From assembly GCA_904419745.1 (NCBI GenBank), contig CAJFSS010000006.1, positions 62,001 to 126,000 on the forward strand: a DNA stretch of 64,000 bases. Direction: 5' to 3'. How positions within the stretch are numbered: position 1 is the first letter of the stretch; each line of letters opens with the position of its first letter. Positions 9,600 to 19,406 of the stretch are shown piece after piece. Source of the stretch: Candidatus Pseudoruminococcus merdavium. GTDB taxonomy: Bacteria; Bacillota; Clostridia; Oscillospirales; Ruminococcaceae. The notes below the pieces were generated by a model. That model worked only from the letters and a program-made list of their open reading frames with translations. It was not told where the DNA came from and did not search any database. A program made the translations under genes and the position numbers.

Positions 9600-11528
9600 T
9601 TAATTGGATACCGCATTGCCGGTATAGAGCTGGTAATAACGGCCCTTTTGCGCAATCAGTTCATCATGGGTTCCGCGTTCAATAATGCGTCCCTGTTCCA
9701 GTACCATAATACAATCCGCGTTGCGGACCGTGGACAGGCGGTGGGCGATGACAAACGTGGTTCTGCCGTGCATCAGCTTATCCATGCCATCCTGCACAAT
9801 CCGCTCGGTGCGGGTATCAATGGAGCTGGTCGCTTCGTCAAGAATCAGTACGGGAGGATCGGCAACCGCCGCACGGGCAATGGCAAGCAGCTGGCGCTGG
9901 CCCTGGCTGAGGTTCGCGCCATCCCCGACAATCTGCGTCTGGTAGCCTTCGGGCAGACGGCGGATGAAACCATCCGCATTGGCGAGTTTCGCCGCTGCAA
10001 TGACTTCTTCTTCCGTGGCGTCCAAGCGCCCAAAACGGATATTTTCCATAACCGTTCCCGCAAACAAATGCGTATCCTGAAGTACAATGCCAAGGGAGCG
10101 GCGCAGGTCGGCTTTTTTCATCTTATTGACGTTGATATCATCATAACGGATTTTGCCATCCTGGATATCGTAAAAACGGTTAATCAGGTTGGTAATTGTG
10201 GTCTTGCCCGCGCCGGTGGAACCGACAAAGGCGATTTTCTGGCCAGGCTGTGCGGTCAACGTGACATTGTGCAAAACGATTTTATTCGAATCATAGCCAA
10301 AGTCCACATCGTCAAAGACAACGCGCCCTTTGAGCTCCACATAGTCCACGCTTCCATCTGCCTGATGGGTGTGTTTCCATGCCCAATGCCCGGTTCTGTG
10401 TTCGGATTCAACCAGTTTCCCGTTTTCCTCTTTCACATTGACCAGGGTTACATAACCATTGTCCACTTCGGGTTCTTCATCCAACAGGGTAAAGATTCTT
10501 TCCGCGCCGGCCATTGCCATGACAATGAAATTAAACTGCTGGCTGACCTGGTTGATTGGCATGCTGAAGCTCTTGTTAAAGGTGAGGAAGCTTGCCAGTC
10601 CACCAAGAGTAAAGCCTCCCAGCCCATTCAAAGCGATAGCTCCTCCCACAATCGCGCACAGCACATAGCTGACGTTTCCAAGCTGCGCATTGACAGGGCC
10701 AAGGATATTGGCAAAGGTATTTGCCTTGTTTGCGCTTTCATAAAGGGAATCGTTGAGTTCTTTAAAACGCTCGATACTCTCCTCTTCATGGCAGAAAACT
10801 TTGACAACTTTCTGCCCATCCATCATCTCTTCAATATAGCCGTTGACGGCGCCGAGCGCTTTTTGCTGGCGGATAAAACACTTTCCGCTTTGCCCGGCGA
10901 ATTTTTTGGTAGCCAGCAGCATAACCCCCACCATAACCAAAGTGAGCAGGGTCAAAGGGATGTTGAGGACAATCATGCTGATGAACACACTGATGATAGT
11001 AATCGAGCTGTTGATAATCTGAGGGATGCTCTGGCTAATCATCTGGCGCAGGGTGTCGATATCATTGGTGTAAATGGACATGATATCGCCATGCGCATGG
11101 GTATCGAAATATTTGATAGGCAGCTGCTCCATGTGGGTAAACAGCTCGTTTCTCATGCTGCGCAGAGTTCCCTGGGTGACATAAATCATCAGGCGGTTAT
11201 ATCCAAAAGTGGCAAATACACCGATAAGATAGAAGCCCCCAACCCGAAGGATTGCCTGGAAAAGAGGGCCAAAATCCGGAGAAGCGCTCCCAATCATCGG
11301 CAAAATATAGCTGTCTATCAAAGTCTGCATGAACAAGGTGCCCTGTACATTGGCAAGGACGCTGACAATAATCAGCACAAAGACGACAATCAGATGTATC
11401 AGATAATTTTTGGAAAGATACTTCATCAGCCGCATGAACTGGCGTACAGGATGATCAATCTTAGGTTTTACGCCCCTGACGGCACGCGGTCCTCCCGGGC
11501 CTTTCACAGTTTTCACAGTTTCAGCCAT
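9600..11528 (-). CDS. ABC exporter half-transporter with consensus catalytic residues (second of a heterodimer)
   Basis: 642-aa multidrug-type exporter: basic N-terminal tail, six membrane helices (about 50-340), an insertion before the ATPase domain, Walker A GSTGAGKTT, signature LSQGQRQ and Walker B LILDEATSSID with the catalytic Glu. The LSQGQ signature is typical of the partner whose signature faces the degenerate site in heterodimers such as TM287/288. Its ATG overlaps the stop of the upstream subunit (TAATG). Third gene of a MarR-ABC-ABC operon; likely function is drug or lipid efflux. Confidence 0.93.
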   Translation of the reverse strand: MAETVKTVKGPGGPRAVRGVKPKIDHPVRQFMRLMKYLSKNYLIHLIVVFVLIIVSVLANVQGTLFMQTLIDSYILPMIGSASPDFGPLFQAILRVGGFYLIGVFATFGYNRLMIYVTQGTLRSMRNELFTHMEQLPIKYFDTHAHGDIMSIYTNDIDTLRQMISQSIPQIINSSITIISVFISMIVLNIPLTLLTLVMVGVMLLATKKFAGQSGKCFIRQQKALGAVNGYIEEMMDGQKVVKVFCHEEESIERFKELNDSLYESANKANTFANILGPVNAQLGNVSYVLCAIVGGAIALNGLGGFTLGGLASFLTFNKSFSMPINQVSQQFNFIVMAMAGAERIFTLLDEEPEVDNGYVTLVNVKEENGKLVESEHRTGHWAWKHTHQADGSVDYVELKGRVVFDDVDFGYDSNKIVLHNVTLTAQPGQKIAFVGSTGAGKTTITNLINRFYDIQDGKIRYDDINVNKMKKADLRRSLGIVLQDTHLFAGTVMENIRFGRLDATEEEVIAAAKLANADGFIRRLPEGYQTQIVGDGANLSQGQRQLLAIARAAVADPPVLILDEATSSIDTRTERIVQDGMDKLMHGRTTFVIAHRLSTVRNADCIMVLEQGRIIERGTHDELIAQKGRYYQLYTGNAVSN

Positions 11529-13282
11529 TATTCCTCTCCTCCTTTCTCATCAAAATCTCCGCTTCCGCCGCCGGTCTGGGATTCAAAGACCTCGCGGTAT
11601 ATTTCATTGTTTTGCAGCAGTTCTTCATGGCTGCCAAACCCGCTGATATGGCCATTGTCCATAACAATAATGCGATCCGCATTCTGCACGCTGGAAATCC
11701 GCTGTGCAATGATCAGTTTTGTGGTATTGGGGATTTCCTCTGCAAAAGCCTTGCGGATTTTGGCGTCGGTCGCCGTATCCACCGCGCTGGTACTGTCGTC
11801 CAGAATCAGGATTTTCGGTTTTTTCAGCAAAGCCCTTGCAATACACAGGCGCTGCTTCTGTCCACCGGAGACGTTCGTACCGCCCTGTTCAATATAAGTA
11901 TTGTATTTTTCCGGCATCTTCTGGATAAATTCATCCGCATAGGCAAGTTTGCATGCCCGGACGCATTCCTCTTCGGTGGCGTTTTTGTCGCCCCAGCGGA
12001 GGTTTTCCAGGATGGTTCCGGAAAACAGGACATTCTTTTGCAGGACAACGGAAACCTCATCGCGCAGTACTTCCATATCATAACTGCGCACATCTTTTCC
12101 GCCAACATAGATGGCGCCTTCCGAAACGTCGTACAGCCGGCTGATGAGATTGACCAAACTGGTTTTTGCGCTTCCCGTACCGCCGATGATACCAATTGTT
12201 TCACCGGAACGAATGGAAAGATTGATATCCTGTAAAACCGGTTCCCCATCCGATTGTTTGTAGCGGAAGCTGACATGGTCAAAGCGGATGCTTCCATCGG
12301 GGACAACCGTATCCGGATGCTCCGGATTGTGCAGATCGCTGCGTTCATTGAGCACCTCGCAGACGCGGCGCGCACTTGCAAGGCTCATGGAAATCATGAC
12401 AAAAACCATGGAGAGCATCATCAGGCTCATGAGGATGTTCATGCAGTAGGTCAGCAGGCTCATCAGTTCGCCGGTGGTCAGGGAAGTCCCCACGATCATC
12501 TTTGCTCCAAGCCAGCTGAGCAGGAGGATACATCCGTACACAGTAAACTGCATTAACGGTGCGTTAAAGCTGAGGATTTTCTCCGCTTTTACAAACAGTT
12601 TATAGATATTCTGGCTCGCTTTTTGGAATTTTTTCGATTCATAGTCCTCCCGGACATAGGCTTTTACCACACGGATGGCAGAGACGTTTTCCTGCACGCT
12701 TGCATTCAAATCGTCATATTTTGGGAATGCCTCGCGGAAATATTTTGTGGCCCTGCTCATGATCAAAAACAGCAGGCAGCCCAGGACAATCACCGCAACA
12801 AGGTAAATGCTTGCAAGTTCCGCGTTGATGGTAAATGCCATGAACATGGCGACAATCAGGCTTGCCGGCGCGCGCATACACATACGCAAAATCATCTGGT
12901 AAGCGTTTTGCAGGTTTGTCACATCCGTAGTCAGCCTGGTAACCAGGCCGGCGGTACTGAACTTGTCAATGTTGGAAAAAGAATAGGTCTGGATGTTTTC
13001 AAACATGGCCTGGCGCAGATTGCGTGCAAAGCCTGTGGAAGCTTTTGCGCCGTATTTTCCCCCGCCCATACCGGCAAGCAGACCAATTACCGCGGCAAGC
13101 ACCATCCACACGCCCACCACATAAATATGTTGCAGATTTCCTGCTTCTACGCCGTCGTCAATAATAGAGGCCATCATCAAGGGGATGATCATCTCCATGA
13201 TAACTTCCAAAATCATGAACAGCGGGGTGGCAATCGAAGCCCGTTTGAACTCCTTTACCTGTGCCAAAAGAGTTTTTAACAT
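11528..13282 (-). CDS. ABC exporter half-transporter with degenerate ATP site (first of a heterodimer)
   Basis: 584 aa: six membrane helices (1-310), then an ATPase domain. Walker A is IGGTGSAKTS, with Ala replacing the usual Gly before Lys; the signature is VSGGQKQR; Walker B is ILILDDSTSAVD, with Asp instead of the catalytic Glu. These changes mark the non-hydrolysing site of heterodimeric exporters of the BmrC/LmrC/TM287 type, matching the consensus partner downstream. Its ATG lies inside the last codons of the MarR gene, so all three genes are translationally coupled. Confidence 0.93.
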   Translation of the reverse strand: MLKTLLAQVKEFKRASIATPLFMILEVIMEMIIPLMMASIIDDGVEAGNLQHIYVVGVWMVLAAVIGLLAGMGGGKYGAKASTGFARNLRQAMFENIQTYSFSNIDKFSTAGLVTRLTTDVTNLQNAYQMILRMCMRAPASLIVAMFMAFTINAELASIYLVAVIVLGCLLFLIMSRATKYFREAFPKYDDLNASVQENVSAIRVVKAYVREDYESKKFQKASQNIYKLFVKAEKILSFNAPLMQFTVYGCILLLSWLGAKMIVGTSLTTGELMSLLTYCMNILMSLMMLSMVFVMISMSLASARRVCEVLNERSDLHNPEHPDTVVPDGSIRFDHVSFRYKQSDGEPVLQDINLSIRSGETIGIIGGTGSAKTSLVNLISRLYDVSEGAIYVGGKDVRSYDMEVLRDEVSVVLQKNVLFSGTILENLRWGDKNATEEECVRACKLAYADEFIQKMPEKYNTYIEQGGTNVSGGQKQRLCIARALLKKPKILILDDSTSAVDTATDAKIRKAFAEEIPNTTKLIIAQRISSVQNADRIIVMDNGHISGFGSHEELLQNNEIYREVFESQTGGGSGDFDEKGGEE

Positions 13283-13734
13283 TCGTTTTCCTCCCTTTGT
13301 TTCTCCAGATTTGCTTTGAGTTTTTCAATCACATCAAAAAACACCTGTAGCTGCTGAGGAGGAATTCCCGCTTTTGTCCGCTTGTCAAGGATTTCTATCA
13401 CAGATACCGTTCGTAAATGCAGGCGTTCCCCGGCAGGGGTCAAAACCAGTTTTTTCAACCTGGCGTCCCGTTTCACAGATTGGCGCACCAGGTAGCCCTT
13501 TTTTTCCATTAAACTGAGGATATTGGTCACACTGGAACGCCCAATGGAAAACGCCGTTTCCAATTCCTTTTGAAAAATTTCGTGATCCTGATTCTCATAT
13601 AAATACCCGAGAATCCATTCATGCATGACAGTCAGGTCGTTTTCCCCGTGTTTTTTGACATAACTAAAGAGATTGCGCATCATCATGTTATCAAGCTTCC
13701 GAACCTGGTAGCCGATATCCTGTTCATGCGCCAT
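13276..13734 (-). CDS. MarR-family repressor of the ABC exporter operon
   Basis: About 152 aa with the MarR winged helix: recognition region FSIGRSSVTNILSLMEKKGYLVR, then the wing SVKRDARLKKLVLTPAGERL, and long dimerisation helices at both ends. ATG 13734 has AAGGAAGG 10 nt upstream; a GTG three codons earlier is too close to that site. It is the first gene of the exporter operon, overlapping the next by 7 nt. MarR genes in this position usually repress the operon until a substrate drug binds (known for the arrangement; ligand unknown). Confidence 0.92.
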   Translation of the reverse strand: MAHEQDIGYQVRKLDNMMMRNLFSYVKKHGENDLTVMHEWILGYLYENQDHEIFQKELETAFSIGRSSVTNILSLMEKKGYLVRQSVKRDARLKKLVLTPAGERLHLRTVSVIEILDKRTKAGIPPQQLQVFFDVIEKLKANLEKQREENEC

Positions 13735-13771
13735 AAAAGACACGCCTTCCTTTCTTTCAAGATAATTTTAT

Positions 13772-14008: not shown

Positions 14009-17000
14009 TTATTTGGAAACTCTGCGTTTCCTGGACGTCAGGGTCAGCACCGCTGTCCCACAGGAAGCAACCAGCATCAACACGGCGGGAACTGTCATGG
14101 AATTGTCACCGGTCTGAGGAGTCTGCGCCCCTCCCTGGTTCTCCGTGTTCTGCGTATCGGTCATCGTGCTTCCCTTTTCTACCAGCGCATATTTCGCGCC
14201 TGTTTTGGAGACGATCGTGTAATGCCCGTTCTCAAAGCTTCCTTTCACCAGGGTAATACTGCCGTCTTCATTCATCCGGTAAATGGCCACATTGTTGACC
14301 TCATAGCCTTCTGCAACCGGATAGCTGATATCCACCGTTCCGTTCGGGACAACTTCGTTGCCCTGCGCGTCTACAAATTTGACGTCATACAGCTTGAACT
14401 TTTTGCCGATATCTTTCAGGGAAGCTGCCGCTTTGTCATAATCCGTACCGGAAGTGATTTCGGTTACAACCAGCTGGACGCCTTCCTCGAACACGCCTTT
14501 GTCGGCATGGACTTTTACACCGGTCGCCTCATCGGTGAGATCGACTGCCGGGGACTGTTCCACTGGTTCTTCCGGTTCAAAGCCCGGATCATCCTCCGTG
14601 GTCTTTTCCAAAGTGCTCCAGTCAAGCTTGAGCAGGACATCCTGGCTGCCTGTTCCGGCAGAGATGGACTCCATAACCGGGACAAACACGTGCAGCGCCA
14701 CAAAACCGTCTTTATCATGCAGGGCGGTGGACACCAGTGGGAACTTCACCTGATCCGGGTACAGTTTTCCAGCATAGGAACCGCCCGCCTGGTTAAATTC
14801 ATCGGATACATCGCTGCCATCCGCATTTTTCTGGGTGCTCAGAACCTCCGCAAGTTCTGTCTCGCCGACCGGACGGCCATAATCGCCAAAGGTGTACCCA
14901 TCCAGGTAGTAGGACAGGTCGCCGAGATATCCAAACTTGTTGAGATAGGACAGCCCCTTGAAATCCATGGTCAAATAATATTTTCCGTCTTCCACGGTGA
15001 GTTTGATGGTATGGTTAATCGCATCGTTGCTCATCGAGTGGTTTATGCGGTCAACCTTAATCATCTCGCCATAGAGGGAATAAACGCCGTCTTCCAGGTT
15101 GTATCTGTCCAAAGCCGGCTCTTCGCTGATTTTTTCCAGCCCGGCAATCGCATCTTCAATCGCCTTTGCCATTGCGTCGACAGCCGCCTGCTCGGTGATG
15201 TTCTTTGTCCAGTCGACCGCTTCCACCGCCGCAGTTACCGCGGAGAAGTTAACGTAATTTTCTGCATTGAGGGCCTCCGCCTGCTCCACCGCCGCTTTGA
15301 CCCCGGCATAATCCGCCGGTTTATAGGCGAGATCTTCCACAGCTTGATTCAAATTCGCCGTATAAGTATCGACAGCATCCTGAGAACCAAAGCCCGTGGT
15401 GAGTTTCCCATTGGCTTCATCAACCAGGGAAGTGAGGGAATTCCAGGATTCCTCTGTGTAAAGGTCTCCGCCTTGCTCCACCACTGCCAATGCTTTAAAC
15501 AGCGCTGTTCTGAGCGCGGTAAGGTTGAGGCCGTAGTTTGCATCATTTGGAATAGCGTCCAGGGTCTCTTTGGCCTGTGCAAGCGCCTGGTTTACTGCTT
15601 CGACGGTCTCAGCGCTTTCAATGTTGCCGACAGCGTCTTTCTTTGCCTGTTCTACCGCGGTTTTGGAAAGTCCGGCATAATGATCCGGGTTATACTTGTC
15701 AAGTTCTGCAACAGCCGCCTGTTTTGCCGCTTCCAGTTTTTCCGCAGCGATAAGCTCTGCTTCAAACTCGATCATTGGGTATCCATCGTTTGCAGCCGGA
15801 TCCAGTGTCCAATCATGGCCAAAATTCCCCTGTGCCGTGATAAAATCCTCGGATTTGAACCAGCTGTCGCTTTCAAATTCCACTTCGCACCGTTTGGCAG
15901 TGTTGTTGGTGCAAAGCACATCCGCGCTGTTTTCCAGCGCATAGCCGTTCATGATATACAGCATGGAGTAAATACGGCCCACCAGCGCGCCGGAATCCCC
16001 GGTTCCCGTGTCCGTAACCTTGCCAACATTGTAAATGCTGACAAGGCTTCCGTATGTGCCACCGGAAAAAGCGCCGACAATCCCGCCAACCTGATTTTGG
16101 CCGGTTACATCGCCCAGGTTGGAGAGCACAACGTTGGAGCCGGTTCCCTGAAGAGTCGCGCTGCCGACAATCCCGCCGACATCGCTGGTACCGGAGACAT
16201 CCCCCTTATTGGAAGATCGGGAAACATTTCCATAAAGGCTGCTTTTTGCGCTGTTCAGCTGTCCGGCAATACCGCCTGTCTGGCCCGCGCCGGTAACGTC
16301 TCCCCTGTTCAGGCATTCGGTAATACTGACATTGTAGGCATAGCCCACCAGGCCGCCGGTTTTGGAGCCGCTGGATTTTTTGCCAACAATATCCCCGAGG
16401 TTTGTTGTGCTGTCAAGATACCCTCTTTTCATCTGTCCCGCAACGCCGCCAACGCAGTTTCCATCCACTGTCATTTTTACATGGATAGTGCAGTTGTCAA
16501 TCCGGAATTCTTCGACATACCCAAAGAGCGCGCCGACATAATTCCCGGTGACGTCGATGACGCCTTCCAGGGTGAGATGATTGACGCTGACCCGATCGTT
16601 GTTCATATCCGCGCCCTGGGCATAGCCAATCAATCCCCTGTAGTCCCCATCGGAGGTGATGGAAAGATTGGAAATAGTGTAACCGCCGCCGGAAATCCTT
16701 CCAGTAAACGGGTGTTCTTTGGTTCCAATCGGGGTCCATTCTTTGGAGTTAAGATCGATATCTTTTGTCAGGATAATGCTTTTAAAAGTTGCCTCCCCGC
16801 TGTTTATCTGCTGTGCCGCCCATGCAAGTTCTTCCGGACTGTCGACCATGGCCGTCGTTGCCAGAACCGTTGCCGGGCTTGTGGTTACGCCGTCCCAGCC
16901 GTCTTCATCCCCTCCGGTCTGTACCGGGACTAAAGCGGAAATGGCGTCTTCGATGTCCTTTGCCGCCTGCTTCACCTGCTCTTCGGAAGGGTTCCCTTCA

Positions 17001-18055
17001 AGCAGCTTTTCACCAGCTTCTACTTTTTCCTGGAGCTTTGCATAGCTGTCCGCAGTCCATTTGCTCTGGTCCACGGACGCTGCCTTTTGCAGAGCCTCCT
17101 GCAAAGCTGAAGCGTCCACTTCCGGATCTTCCAGGCCGTTTACTGCGTTGATGGCGCCCTGGAGTGCTTTTACCTGTGCTGCGCGCTCGGAAGCGTTCAT
17201 CTCCTCCACAACACGGATAACCCGGGGAGCCATGGCCTCCTTGTCATATTCCAGGCGGACCAGGGTGTTGGAGAGTTTTGCTTTGGTATCGGAAATCACG
17301 TTTTGCAGTGCTTCCCAATCCTCAGCAGAAGCGTCGCCCTTTTTTGTATTCATCGCCTGATACAGCCAGTATTCCGTTTCTCCGGACAGGTCGTCCACTT
17401 TGGTCATACTGCTGTAATCCACACAGAGACGTGCAGGCTGATTCCCGGAACTCGGGGAAATGGATGCCATAACCGGAACAAAAACCTGTACACAGGTCAC
17501 TGTTCCCTGTTCGATGGTTTCCGCTTCGTCCGGCGTTTTTACCGGTACTGCCAGGATGTGCGGATAGGCCTTTCCCTTTGCCGCCGTAACGGAAGAATCC
17601 TCCGTATTATAGTCGTCATAGGCGAGGGAGCCGTCCGTCATCCGGTGCTCCGCCAGCACCTGGGATGGCTGTAAATCGCTGCGGAAATCTGTTTTATATG
17701 CATTCAACTGTAGCAAGTACCCGGCAGTATACAGCGCCCCCATCGGGACAACTTCCATGATCAGGGTTGCTTCCCCGTTTTCTACCACAAGAAGCGGCCG
17801 ATAATCGGGATCATCTTCCGCATGCTCGGTGTTGTAGCTGGAGCTTCCCCGGATGGAGCGGTTGCCCATGGAAGGATTATCCTGCGCGGATTGCCACAGA
17901 TCAATTGAGACACGGTAAACGCCGTCTTCCACCGTATTTGCAGAAGGAGCAGGTTCTGCTGCCAATACGCCGGTAAAGGCCATGCTCATGGACATTGCCG
18001 CCGCCAGTACCGCAGACAGCCCGCGTTTCAACCAATTACGCTTGGTCGATGCCAT
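14009..18055 (-). CDS. Large sortase-anchored surface protein with two NEAT domains, FIVAR and GLUG-type repeats
   Basis: 1348 aa. Residues 1-33 are a signal peptide (basic NWLKRG, hydrophobic core, VLAAEP). Residues 42-235 look like a first NEAT domain (VEDGVYRVSIDLWQ, NPSMGNR). About 285-390 is a helical FIVAR-like module (QGAINAVNGLED...), 405-790 is a run of glycine-rich GLUG-type repeats (GGIVGS, GGLVGYA), and 800-980 holds more FIVAR-like helices. About 985-1165 is a second NEAT domain (LEDGVYSLYGEM, HSMSND). The C-terminus carries a sorting signal, TPQTGD (1312-1317), a hydrophobic stretch and RKRR. NEAT domains bind haem or iron; the usual YxxxY haem ligand pair is not obvious here. 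Two TTAGT palindromes lie in its 5' region. A haem-capture role is inferred. Confidence 0.85.
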   Translation of the reverse strand: MASTKRNWLKRGLSAVLAAAMSMSMAFTGVLAAEPAPSANTVEDGVYRVSIDLWQSAQDNPSMGNRSIRGSSSYNTEHAEDDPDYRPLLVVENGEATLIMEVVPMGALYTAGYLLQLNAYKTDFRSDLQPSQVLAEHRMTDGSLAYDDYNTEDSSVTAAKGKAYPHILAVPVKTPDEAETIEQGTVTCVQVFVPVMASISPSSGNQPARLCVDYSSMTKVDDLSGETEYWLYQAMNTKKGDASAEDWEALQNVISDTKAKLSNTLVRLEYDKEAMAPRVIRVVEEMNASERAAQVKALQGAINAVNGLEDPEVDASALQEALQKAASVDQSKWTADSYAKLQEKVEAGEKLLEGNPSEEQVKQAAKDIEDAISALVPVQTGGDEDGWDGVTTSPATVLATTAMVDSPEELAWAAQQINSGEATFKSIILTKDIDLNSKEWTPIGTKEHPFTGRISGGGYTISNLSITSDGDYRGLIGYAQGADMNNDRVSVNHLTLEGVIDVTGNYVGALFGYVEEFRIDNCTIHVKMTVDGNCVGGVAGQMKRGYLDSTTNLGDIVGKKSSGSKTGGLVGYAYNVSITECLNRGDVTGAGQTGGIAGQLNSAKSSLYGNVSRSSNKGDVSGTSDVGGIVGSATLQGTGSNVVLSNLGDVTGQNQVGGIVGAFSGGTYGSLVSIYNVGKVTDTGTGDSGALVGRIYSMLYIMNGYALENSADVLCTNNTAKRCEVEFESDSWFKSEDFITAQGNFGHDWTLDPAANDGYPMIEFEAELIAAEKLEAAKQAAVAELDKYNPDHYAGLSKTAVEQAKKDAVGNIESAETVEAVNQALAQAKETLDAIPNDANYGLNLTALRTALFKALAVVEQGGDLYTEESWNSLTSLVDEANGKLTTGFGSQDAVDTYTANLNQAVEDLAYKPADYAGVKAAVEQAEALNAENYVNFSAVTAAVEAVDWTKNITEQAAVDAMAKAIEDAIAGLEKISEEPALDRYNLEDGVYSLYGEMIKVDRINHSMSNDAINHTIKLTVEDGKYYLTMDFKGLSYLNKFGYLGDLSYYLDGYTFGDYGRPVGETELAEVLSTQKNADGSDVSDEFNQAGGSYAGKLYPDQVKFPLVSTALHDKDGFVALHVFVPVMESISAGTGSQDVLLKLDWSTLEKTTEDDPGFEPEEPVEQSPAVDLTDEATGVKVHADKGVFEEGVQLVVTEITSGTDYDKAAASLKDIGKKFKLYDVKFVDAQGNEVVPNGTVDISYPVAEGYEVNNVAIYRMNEDGSITLVKGSFENGHYTIVSKTGAKYALVEKGSTMTDTQNTENQGGAQTPQTGDNSMTVPAVLMLVASCGTAVLTLTSRKRRVSK

Positions 18056-18101
18056 ATTTACTTATTCCTCCTTTTCTCATTTCCCATGGAAATAATTGTT
18101 G

Positions 18102-18117
18102 GTTAGTATAAACTAAC
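18102..18117. promoter_or_regulatory. TTAGT-type palindromic operator, site A
   Basis: GTTAGT-ATAA-ACTAAC, 47 nt before the surface-protein ATG. On the minus strand it overlaps a possible TATACT -10 box. It has the same 16-bp geometry as sites at 18242-18257 and 19352-19367. Confidence 0.65.
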
Positions 18118-18168
18118 TATCGCCGAAAATAATTCGATGTCGCAGCATTCCTCCCTCCCCAAATAAGA

Positions 18169-18198
18169 AAGCCGGCGGGAGTTTCCCGCCAAAACGGT
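18169..18198 (-). terminator. Leader hairpin between the two operators
   Basis: GGCGGGA-AAC-TCCCGCC on the minus strand, followed by the moderately T-rich GGCTTTCTTATTTGG. It may be an intrinsic terminator of the longer leader transcript. The rest of 18118-18463 holds the operators, the promoter and the regulator's terminator. Confidence 0.4.
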
Positions 18199-18241
18199 TG
18201 TTGTTTTTCTGGAAGAGCTAAATCCTTCCACTAATTTTTTG

Positions 18242-18257
18242 GTTAGTTAAAGCTAAC
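18242..18257. promoter_or_regulatory. TTAGT-type palindromic operator, site B
   Basis: GTTAGTTAAAGCTAAC, extended to GGTTAG...CTAACC at 18241-18258. It lies about 45-60 nt downstream of the predicted transcription start of the surface-protein gene. Confidence 0.65.
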
Positions 18258-18308
18258 CAAAATCCTGAAAAAATACTCCCTTGCGGAGCGTCTTCCAAAA
18301 TCAGCACC

Positions 18309-18463: not shown

Positions 18464-19303
18464 TCAGCAAATCATCACTGTAAAAACCGCCGTACTTTCC
18501 GGCATATGCAGCGTGCCGGCATTGCAGTGCATTTTCATGCAGACGCTCCCATGCAGAATTTGCTCCCTGCCCCTGCCCATCGAGACAAAATGGAGCGCGG
18601 ATACGGGAAAATACACATATCTTCCCTCCTGCCCGGCCGGAAAGAAGGAGTCCCCCATCTGGTACTGCAACCCCTGAACTCTCCCTTCCAGAATCGCGCC
18701 GCTCTGTGCAGAACGGGCTCTGACAGTCGCAATGGTCAGGTAGAGCATTCCCACATGATTTTTGACAATCAGCTCGCAGGGGTGTTCAAATCCACGGTTT
18801 CCCATTGAAATCATATTCCCATGTTGGATATGCTCCCGGTATATGACAAAGGGGAGCGTATAGCTGCCGTCGTCCAGCTGCTCGCACAGTTCGCTGCCGG
18901 AAAAGCTTTGCCTTCCCGCAAAATTTTCCTTTATCTGCATGTGTTGCTGCCGTTCTTCCATTCGCTTGAAATATTCTTCTGAAAATCCGGCCGTTATGGC
19001 GGCCATGGCGTCCTCTTTGGCCTGGAGCGGCGGTAAATCCAGAGATTGCAGGTATGTTTGTGCAATCCCCAGCTTTCGCCGGTATTCCTCTGCCACTTTT
19101 CCGCCATAGGCGCTTAAAACCGTTTTCCTGGAAGCGGCGCGTTCTACAAAACCCTGTTTTTCCAGTTCCGACAGCGCACGGGAAACCGCCACTTTACTTT
19201 TTCCCAGGAAATGGGCGGCGTCTGTTACCGTGCGTTTTCTCGGCTCCGCCTGGAGATAATACAGCAAAAGCCGAATGTGAAAACAATGCCGTGTTTCCGA
19301 CAT
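18464..19303 (-). CDS. DtxR-like winged-helix regulator fused to a NEAT-like domain (candidate haem sensor)
   Basis: 279 aa. Residues 9-65 form a winged helix (VTDAAHFLGKSKVAVSRALSE, then GFVER and a wing); 66-122 match the DtxR/MntR dimerisation helices (KVAEEYRRKLGIAQTYL, AKEDAMAA). Residues 143-265 look like a NEAT domain: LDDGSYTLPF, then ISMGNRGF, then CELIVKNHVGMLYLTIATV, sharing the SMGN motif with the neighbouring surface protein. The residues expected to bind metal in DtxR/MntR (the His in the first dimer helix; Cys/Glu/His in the second) are Lys77, Met100, Ile103 and Thr104 here, so classical metal sensing seems lost. No signal peptide or membrane segment, so it is cytosolic. ATG 19303 has GAGGAGG 6 nt upstream. 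A palindrome overlaps its promoter. Haem sensing is inferred. Confidence 0.75.
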   Translation of the reverse strand: MSETRHCFHIRLLLYYLQAEPRKRTVTDAAHFLGKSKVAVSRALSELEKQGFVERAASRKTVLSAYGGKVAEEYRRKLGIAQTYLQSLDLPPLQAKEDAMAAITAGFSEEYFKRMEERQQHMQIKENFAGRQSFSGSELCEQLDDGSYTLPFVIYREHIQHGNMISMGNRGFEHPCELIVKNHVGMLYLTIATVRARSAQSGAILEGRVQGLQYQMGDSFFPAGQEGRYVYFPVSALHFVSMGRGREQILHGSVCMKMHCNAGTLHMPESTAVFTVMIC

Positions 19304-19351
19304 GTCCATCCTCCTCAATCATAGTTGCCGTTGCTCTTTTGGGACAGGTTG

Positions 19352-19367
19352 ATTAGTTGCAACTAAC
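19352..19367. promoter_or_regulatory. TTAGT-type palindromic operator, site C (autoregulatory)
   Basis: ATTAGTTGCAACTAAC, containing the perfect 14-bp palindrome TTAGTTGCAACTAA (19353-19366). It sits immediately downstream of the regulator's -10 box, where a repressor would block initiation. Confidence 0.65.
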
Positions 19368-19376
19368 CATATATTC

Positions 19377-19406
19377 AACATATCATATGCGCTTTTGGAT
19401 TGTCAA
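19377..19406 (-). promoter_or_regulatory. Promoter of the HTH-NEAT regulator gene
   Basis: TTGACA (19406-19401), 18-bp spacer, TATGTT (19382-19377) on the minus strand. Confidence 0.6.

Follow-up and report, generated by a model that had tools for sequence, protein, structure and literature searches.

A DtxR/MntR-derived regulator with a NEAT-homologous domain, a probable haem sensor encoded beside haem-uptake genes

A repressor core joined to a NEAT-related domain

The window, that is the entire 64,000-nucleotide stretch of DNA analysed here, encodes a regulator in which a DtxR/MntR-type DNA-binding unit without metal ligands is fused to a domain homologous to NEAT domains. In the literature, NEAT domains appear as haem carriers that sit on the cell surface or are secreted. 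Given a repressor core that lacks its metal site and a NEAT-related domain attached to it, the regulator probably senses haem inside the cell. Judged from sequence comparisons, we consider it a good deal more probable than its rivals that the protein is a directly haem-sensing DtxR paralogue, acting at the iron boxes of haem-uptake genes. The features of the regulator gene are as follows.

18464..19303, minus strand: coding sequence of the NEAT-DtxR regulator, 279 aa (open reading frame; two-part build shared with 37 homologues)
18950..19303, minus strand: residues 1-118, DtxR/MntR-type winged helix and dimer helices, metal ligands gone (MntR match, ligand columns)
18467..18886, minus strand: residues 140-279, NEAT-homologous domain (PDB NEAT chains, Pfam NEAT, hhalign)
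18803..18808, minus strand: Ser166-Met167, the SM motif of the NEAT 3-10 helix, predicted haem contact and axial ligand (aligned with the SM of IsdX2-N5 and with that of Shr-type NEAT domains encoded nearby)
18497..18508, minus strand: His266-Met267-Pro-Glu in the last hairpin, with Met267 as predicted second axial ligand (HMPES motif retained with Met167)

The reading frame starts at the ATG at 19303, where the homologues also begin; a TTG 15 bases upstream is a possible alternative. All motifs quoted in the original prediction (LDDGSYTLPF, ISMGNRGF and CELIVKNHVGMLYLTIATV) were found in the translation. Searched alone, the protein matched the Pfam families MarR_2 (2e-8) and Fe_dep_repress (0.009) at its N-terminus and Pfam NEAT at residues 142-191 (E=0.0089, under the curated cut-off), while NCBIfam returned MntR (9e-9) and, at the place of the Pfam NEAT match, IsdC (0.002). 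A single-sequence AlphaFold2 model was of low confidence (pLDDT 42 for the whole regulator, 37 for the C-terminal half) and placed strands mainly in the C-terminus. Because the single-protein match was weak, the domain assignment was tested on the family.

Whole-genome searches yielded at least 38 members carrying both parts, namely the window protein and at least 37 relatives, with full-length homologues spanning several families of the window organism's order and class. Identity to the window protein falls to about 22% among the 38 members. Separate searches of viral contigs, plasmids and phages found no homologues, and a scan of genome contigs returned a short DtxR match and nothing else. 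No export signal was seen on the fusion of DNA-binding and NEAT parts. In a literature search outside subscription papers and preprints, we found no paper on a single protein uniting NEAT and DtxR parts; a NEAT review, in its text apart from the reference list, mentions neither cytoplasm nor DNA-binding nor transcription, and the same words are absent from a 2014 survey. On the family comparisons described below, the combination of a DtxR/MntR-type unit with a NEAT-homologous domain can be taken as confirmed with near certainty.

The N-terminal half has lost the DtxR/MntR metal site

For the N-terminal comparison we used a profile built from seven family members. It matched E. coli MntR with E=3.4e-13 over profile positions 27-116, covering winged helix and dimer helices, and B. 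subtilis MntR with 2e-10; the remaining half of the same profile matched NEAT structures. The DtxR/MntR-type unit thus recognised spans residues ~14-116 of the regulator, and its predicted descent from the DtxR/MntR family is borne out. Metal-binding columns were set by alignment to His77, Glu99, Glu102 and His103 of B. subtilis MntR. At these four columns the metal ligands are absent from all 38 members; His-Cys-Glu-His is kept in every one of the 12 ordinary DtxR paralogues checked. In the window regulator the columns hold Leu78, Met100, Thr104 and Ala105, though the second may equally be filled by the Ala next to Met100 if the gap is placed differently. The predicted loss of the ligands therefore stands for the whole family, and only the residue numbers given for it (Lys77, Met100, Ile103 and Thr104) were about one off. 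With the ligands missing throughout, the regulator should be seen as a DtxR-derived paralogue and not as a DtxR metalloregulator.

The C-terminal half is homologous to NEAT domains

When the family profile of the C-terminal part was compared with the PDB, the only chains above noise were NEAT chains: IsdX1 (3sz6/3sik, 1.5e-9 and 1.9e-9), IsdX2 NEAT5 (4h8p, 2.7e-8), Hbp2 (4myp, 3e-6), IsdC (1e-3) and Shr (6e-3), with chain names such as IsdX1, IsdX2 and Hbp2 taken from PMC12796733. These matches, free of any other real ones, uphold the NEAT likeness claimed for residues 143-265. The proposed check against Pfam NEAT (PF05031), in which the window protein alone stays under the cut-off as described, matched 17 of 20 members (best 5.5e-8), one of them over the curated cut-off. 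Identity of the C-terminus with FeoA or SH3 domains was rejected, as Pfam gave no such match in this part and NEAT instead.

Using hhalign, the domain was aligned to NEAT domains from surface proteins encoded nearby at 97.6% and E=4e-12, as against E=0.68 for the N-terminal half, which served as negative control. The full-length regulator profile likewise retrieved these surface-protein NEAT domains via its C-terminal part (best protein 2e-19). Local alignment to NEAT is significant over the first ~80 columns only; a forced global alignment covers the whole domain (96.8%, 3e-10) with the second half poorly matched, and in a three-row alignment of the regulator with the surface NEAT domains from the window, the second half was misaligned.

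Met167 and Met267 form a candidate haem site

In Shr, haem is ligated by Met390/Met475 in NEAT1 and by Met997/Met1107 in NEAT2, and Ser389 contacts a propionate (PMC12796733). The corresponding 3-10-helix motif of the regulators is well kept, with S166 in 35 and M167 in 31 of the 38 members. In NEAT domains an axial ligand comes from the beta7-beta8 hairpin, as the Tyr of YxxxY or as a Met. The canonical YxxxY is absent from the regulators; a conserved HMPES with Met267 is found in their last hairpin, in a register against Shr that is uncertain. Since the second half of the domain aligns only when forced, Met267 is no more than a candidate either for the structural counterpart of the second methionine of Shr or for a residue at the Isd tyrosine position.

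The two methionines are largely kept or lost together: 29 members have both, seven have neither and two have M167 alone (Fisher P=2.9e-6, with members counted as unrelated). Across the 38 members, positions 167, 171, 198, 207, 267, 268 and 270 vary together, the co-varying residues in the window regulator being M167, G171, S198, G207 and M267-P268. The fold positions N169, P175, Y214, P233, F239 and G252 do not vary with M167/M267. The tree shows 5 and 6 changes, among them two independent pairs on well-supported branches. With only two such pairs, the co-loss is suggestive and not statistically proven.

The regulator genes are linked to haem uptake

As predicted, the regulator gene adjoins that of a NEAT surface protein.

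14009..18055, minus strand: NEAT surface protein, 1348 aa, with two Shr-type NEAT domains, a signal-like N-terminus and an LPXTG-like C-terminus (PF05031, 1e-10)

The second NEAT domain of this protein matches Shr NEAT2 (9w5y) with E=9e-35. We counted haem-uptake genes (Shr-type NEAT, Shp-type, haem-type binding protein and FecCD permease) in flanks of up to ~9 kb and found them in 31 of 38 regulator loci, compared to none of 20 control loci of ordinary DtxR genes; several of the seven regulator loci without such genes lie at contig ends. A part for the regulator in the control of haem uptake is thus very likely.

Further genes were observed in these surroundings. The regulator has a second copy on contig C10 of its own genome (L034:5599-6240), which is broken by internal stops and a frame change and has the same iron boxes on its flanks; downstream of it lie a Shp-type NEAT protein (PF11545, 3e-57), a binding protein and a FecCD permease. 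With the broken copy beside a Shp-type uptake cluster, the uptake system of the window organism is divided over two places. Near this second cluster, L034:8441-10821 contains a repeat-rich open reading frame resembling a CRISPR array, alongside a Cas7-like protein, and a similar Cas-like gene lies at L039:16700-17602. In the window, the stretch 9600-13743 next to the NEAT gene encodes a MarR regulator and, after it, two ABC exporter half-transporters, which might export haem or drugs; ABC pairs of this kind also occur near NEAT-regulator genes in loci L036 and L037.

The palindrome at the regulator promoter is a general iron box

Palindromic boxes were found around the regulator gene and elsewhere in the same genome.

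19377..19406, minus strand: promoter-like TTGACA-18-TATGTT of the regulator (iron box begins 8 bases beyond the second hexamer)
19351..19368, no strand: GGTTAG-N6-CTAATC palindrome (iron box), just past the promoter-like hexamers of the regulator (dyad search)
18241..18258, no strand: iron box 1 before the NEAT surface gene (palindrome)
18101..18118, no strand: iron box 2 before the NEAT surface gene (palindrome)
L131:1031-1048, L127:4459-4476, L124:4902-4919 and L128:5545-5562: further iron boxes, close to a pair of feoB genes and a pair of short dtxR genes (general DtxR regulon)

Between the two boxes of the NEAT gene, a terminator-like hairpin on the minus strand (18172-18192) may represent an attenuator or the terminator of the regulator gene.

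GTTAG-N6-CTAAC was the top 5-mer dyad around the regulator genes, present exactly in 24 of 38 loci where 1.35 would be expected. The window genome contains 11 such sites at no more than one mismatch, compared to 0 for the reversed pattern. Sites also lie near two feoB genes, one of them with two mismatches, and near ordinary dtxR genes. Furthermore, the box is present in 33 of 100 relatives, most of which are without a NEAT regulator among the matches listed. The original prediction of an operator shared by the regulator and the NEAT surface gene holds as to the palindromes themselves, which are not private to this pair. An operator specific to the NEAT regulator was rejected, given its occurrence before feoB and dtxR genes and in genomes where no such regulator was found. 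GTTAG-N6-CTAAC is thus a general DtxR-type iron box, and sharing it is not evidence that the NEAT regulator binds it. In view of these sequence patterns, the likeliest arrangement would be a paralogue of the iron repressor that acts at the general iron box in response to a different input.

A sister clade encodes a complementary tandem partner

In seven members, a second regulator of 264-295 aa is encoded directly upstream.

L183, L189, L190, L198, L200, L201 and L202: loci with a tandem partner, for example L190:9832-10626 beside L190:8980-9816

This partner ends in a diverged domain with homology to the C-terminal domain of the NEAT regulators (98.2%, 3e-14). The partner has kept His-Cys-Glu-His and lost the methionines, and the adjoining NEAT regulator shows the reverse. 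This complementary pair gives the strongest hint of a split between metal and haem sensing. It would fit a pair of paralogous sensors built on one scaffold, a DtxR-type dimer with a NEAT-derived domain, one responding to iron via the metal site and the other to haem via a bis-methionine NEAT pocket. Both would act at one and the same iron box, perhaps as heterodimers, and the promoter would thereby integrate iron and haem status; in the clade of the window, an ordinary DtxR encoded elsewhere would supply the iron half. We put this fuller scheme forward tentatively and think it rather doubtful.

How the regulator may work

Evident from the sequences are the two homologies, the loss of the metal ligands, a fusion kept in 38 genomes and linkage to Shr/Shp-type genes. 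The best explanation would be that the regulator derives from a DtxR/MntR-type repressor through loss of the metal site and gain of a cytosolic NEAT domain. This domain would bind haem between Met167 and Met267, with Ser166 on a propionate, in the manner of the Shr NEAT methionines. Haem occupancy would then alter binding of the dimer to the GTTAG-N6-CTAAC boxes over its own start region and before the NEAT surface gene, adding a haem signal at promoters that are also recognised by ordinary Fe-sensing DtxR proteins. If so, a cytosolic NEAT domain on a repressor would constitute a new way of sensing haem, the DtxR family would gain a haem input, and there would be an explanation for clostridial-type haem uptake being tuned apart from free iron.

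The NEAT-derived domain could instead serve dimerisation, partner docking or the binding of a non-haem ligand, with the regulator tuning the action of the ordinary iron-sensing DtxR at these boxes, for instance through inactive or altered heterodimers. The operator being a general iron box fits such a role, as do the seven members that lack both candidate ligands and keep the fold positions, and the metal-sensing partner that adjoins the regulator in the sister clade with a NEAT-related C-terminus devoid of the methionines. However, both methionines persist in 29 of 38 members even where the sequence around them is down to 22-26% identity to the window regulator, and M167, G171, S198, G207 and M267-P268 vary jointly, as residues of a pocket might, while fold positions stay. 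We consider this role unlikely. Far less probable still is a conventional DtxR/MntR metalloregulator whose accessory domain, of SH3-like/FeoA type, has diverged: the N-terminal part is clearly DtxR/MntR-homologous, as this would require, but none of the 38 members has the metal ligands, and the C-terminal part matches NEAT in both PDB and Pfam and has no FeoA/SH3 match in Pfam.

Under the favoured reading of direct haem sensing, the direction of control can take either sign. Haem may be the co-repressor that replaces the lost metal, giving end-product feedback, and we lean only slightly towards this sign. Conversely, haem on the NEAT domain could release repression, so that uptake would be confined to conditions of available haem and scarce iron, as most characterised haem-sensing repressors (PefR, HsmR, HrtR and FhtR) leave DNA upon haem binding (PMC11442138). 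Those proteins, however, govern haem export or detoxification, and the DtxR-type control of uptake exemplified by MtsR/shr is metal co-repression (PMC6593403); as part of the haem-sensing reading, release by haem is the somewhat less probable sign.

Comparison with known systems

The regulator shares winged helix and dimer helices with MntR, DtxR and IdeR, and differs from them in lacking the metal ligands and in having a NEAT domain in place of the SH3-like domain. Its C-terminal domain is homologous in sequence to the NEAT domains of IsdX1, IsdX2, Hbp2 and Shr, and has the SM motif in common with Shr, for which methionine ligands are known (PMC12796733). Unlike these surface or secreted haem chaperones, it is fused to a DNA-binding unit, and the NEAT YxxxY is missing from it. 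The proposed logic of a cytosolic, haem-responsive DNA-binding dimer is that of PefR, HsmR, HrtR and FhtR (PMC11442138), which have MarR/TetR folds, other haem sites and roles in haem export or detoxification. In function, a close parallel is MtsR of Streptococcus pyogenes, a DtxR-family protein that represses shr-shp-siaABC in response to Fe/Mn (PMC6593403). Both are DtxR-type regulators tied to Shr/Shp/haem-ABC uptake, an MtsR-like role here being in keeping with haem-uptake genes in 31 of 38 loci and boxes around the gene in 24 of 38; whereas MtsR responds to Fe/Mn, the present regulator has a NEAT domain and none of the metal ligands.
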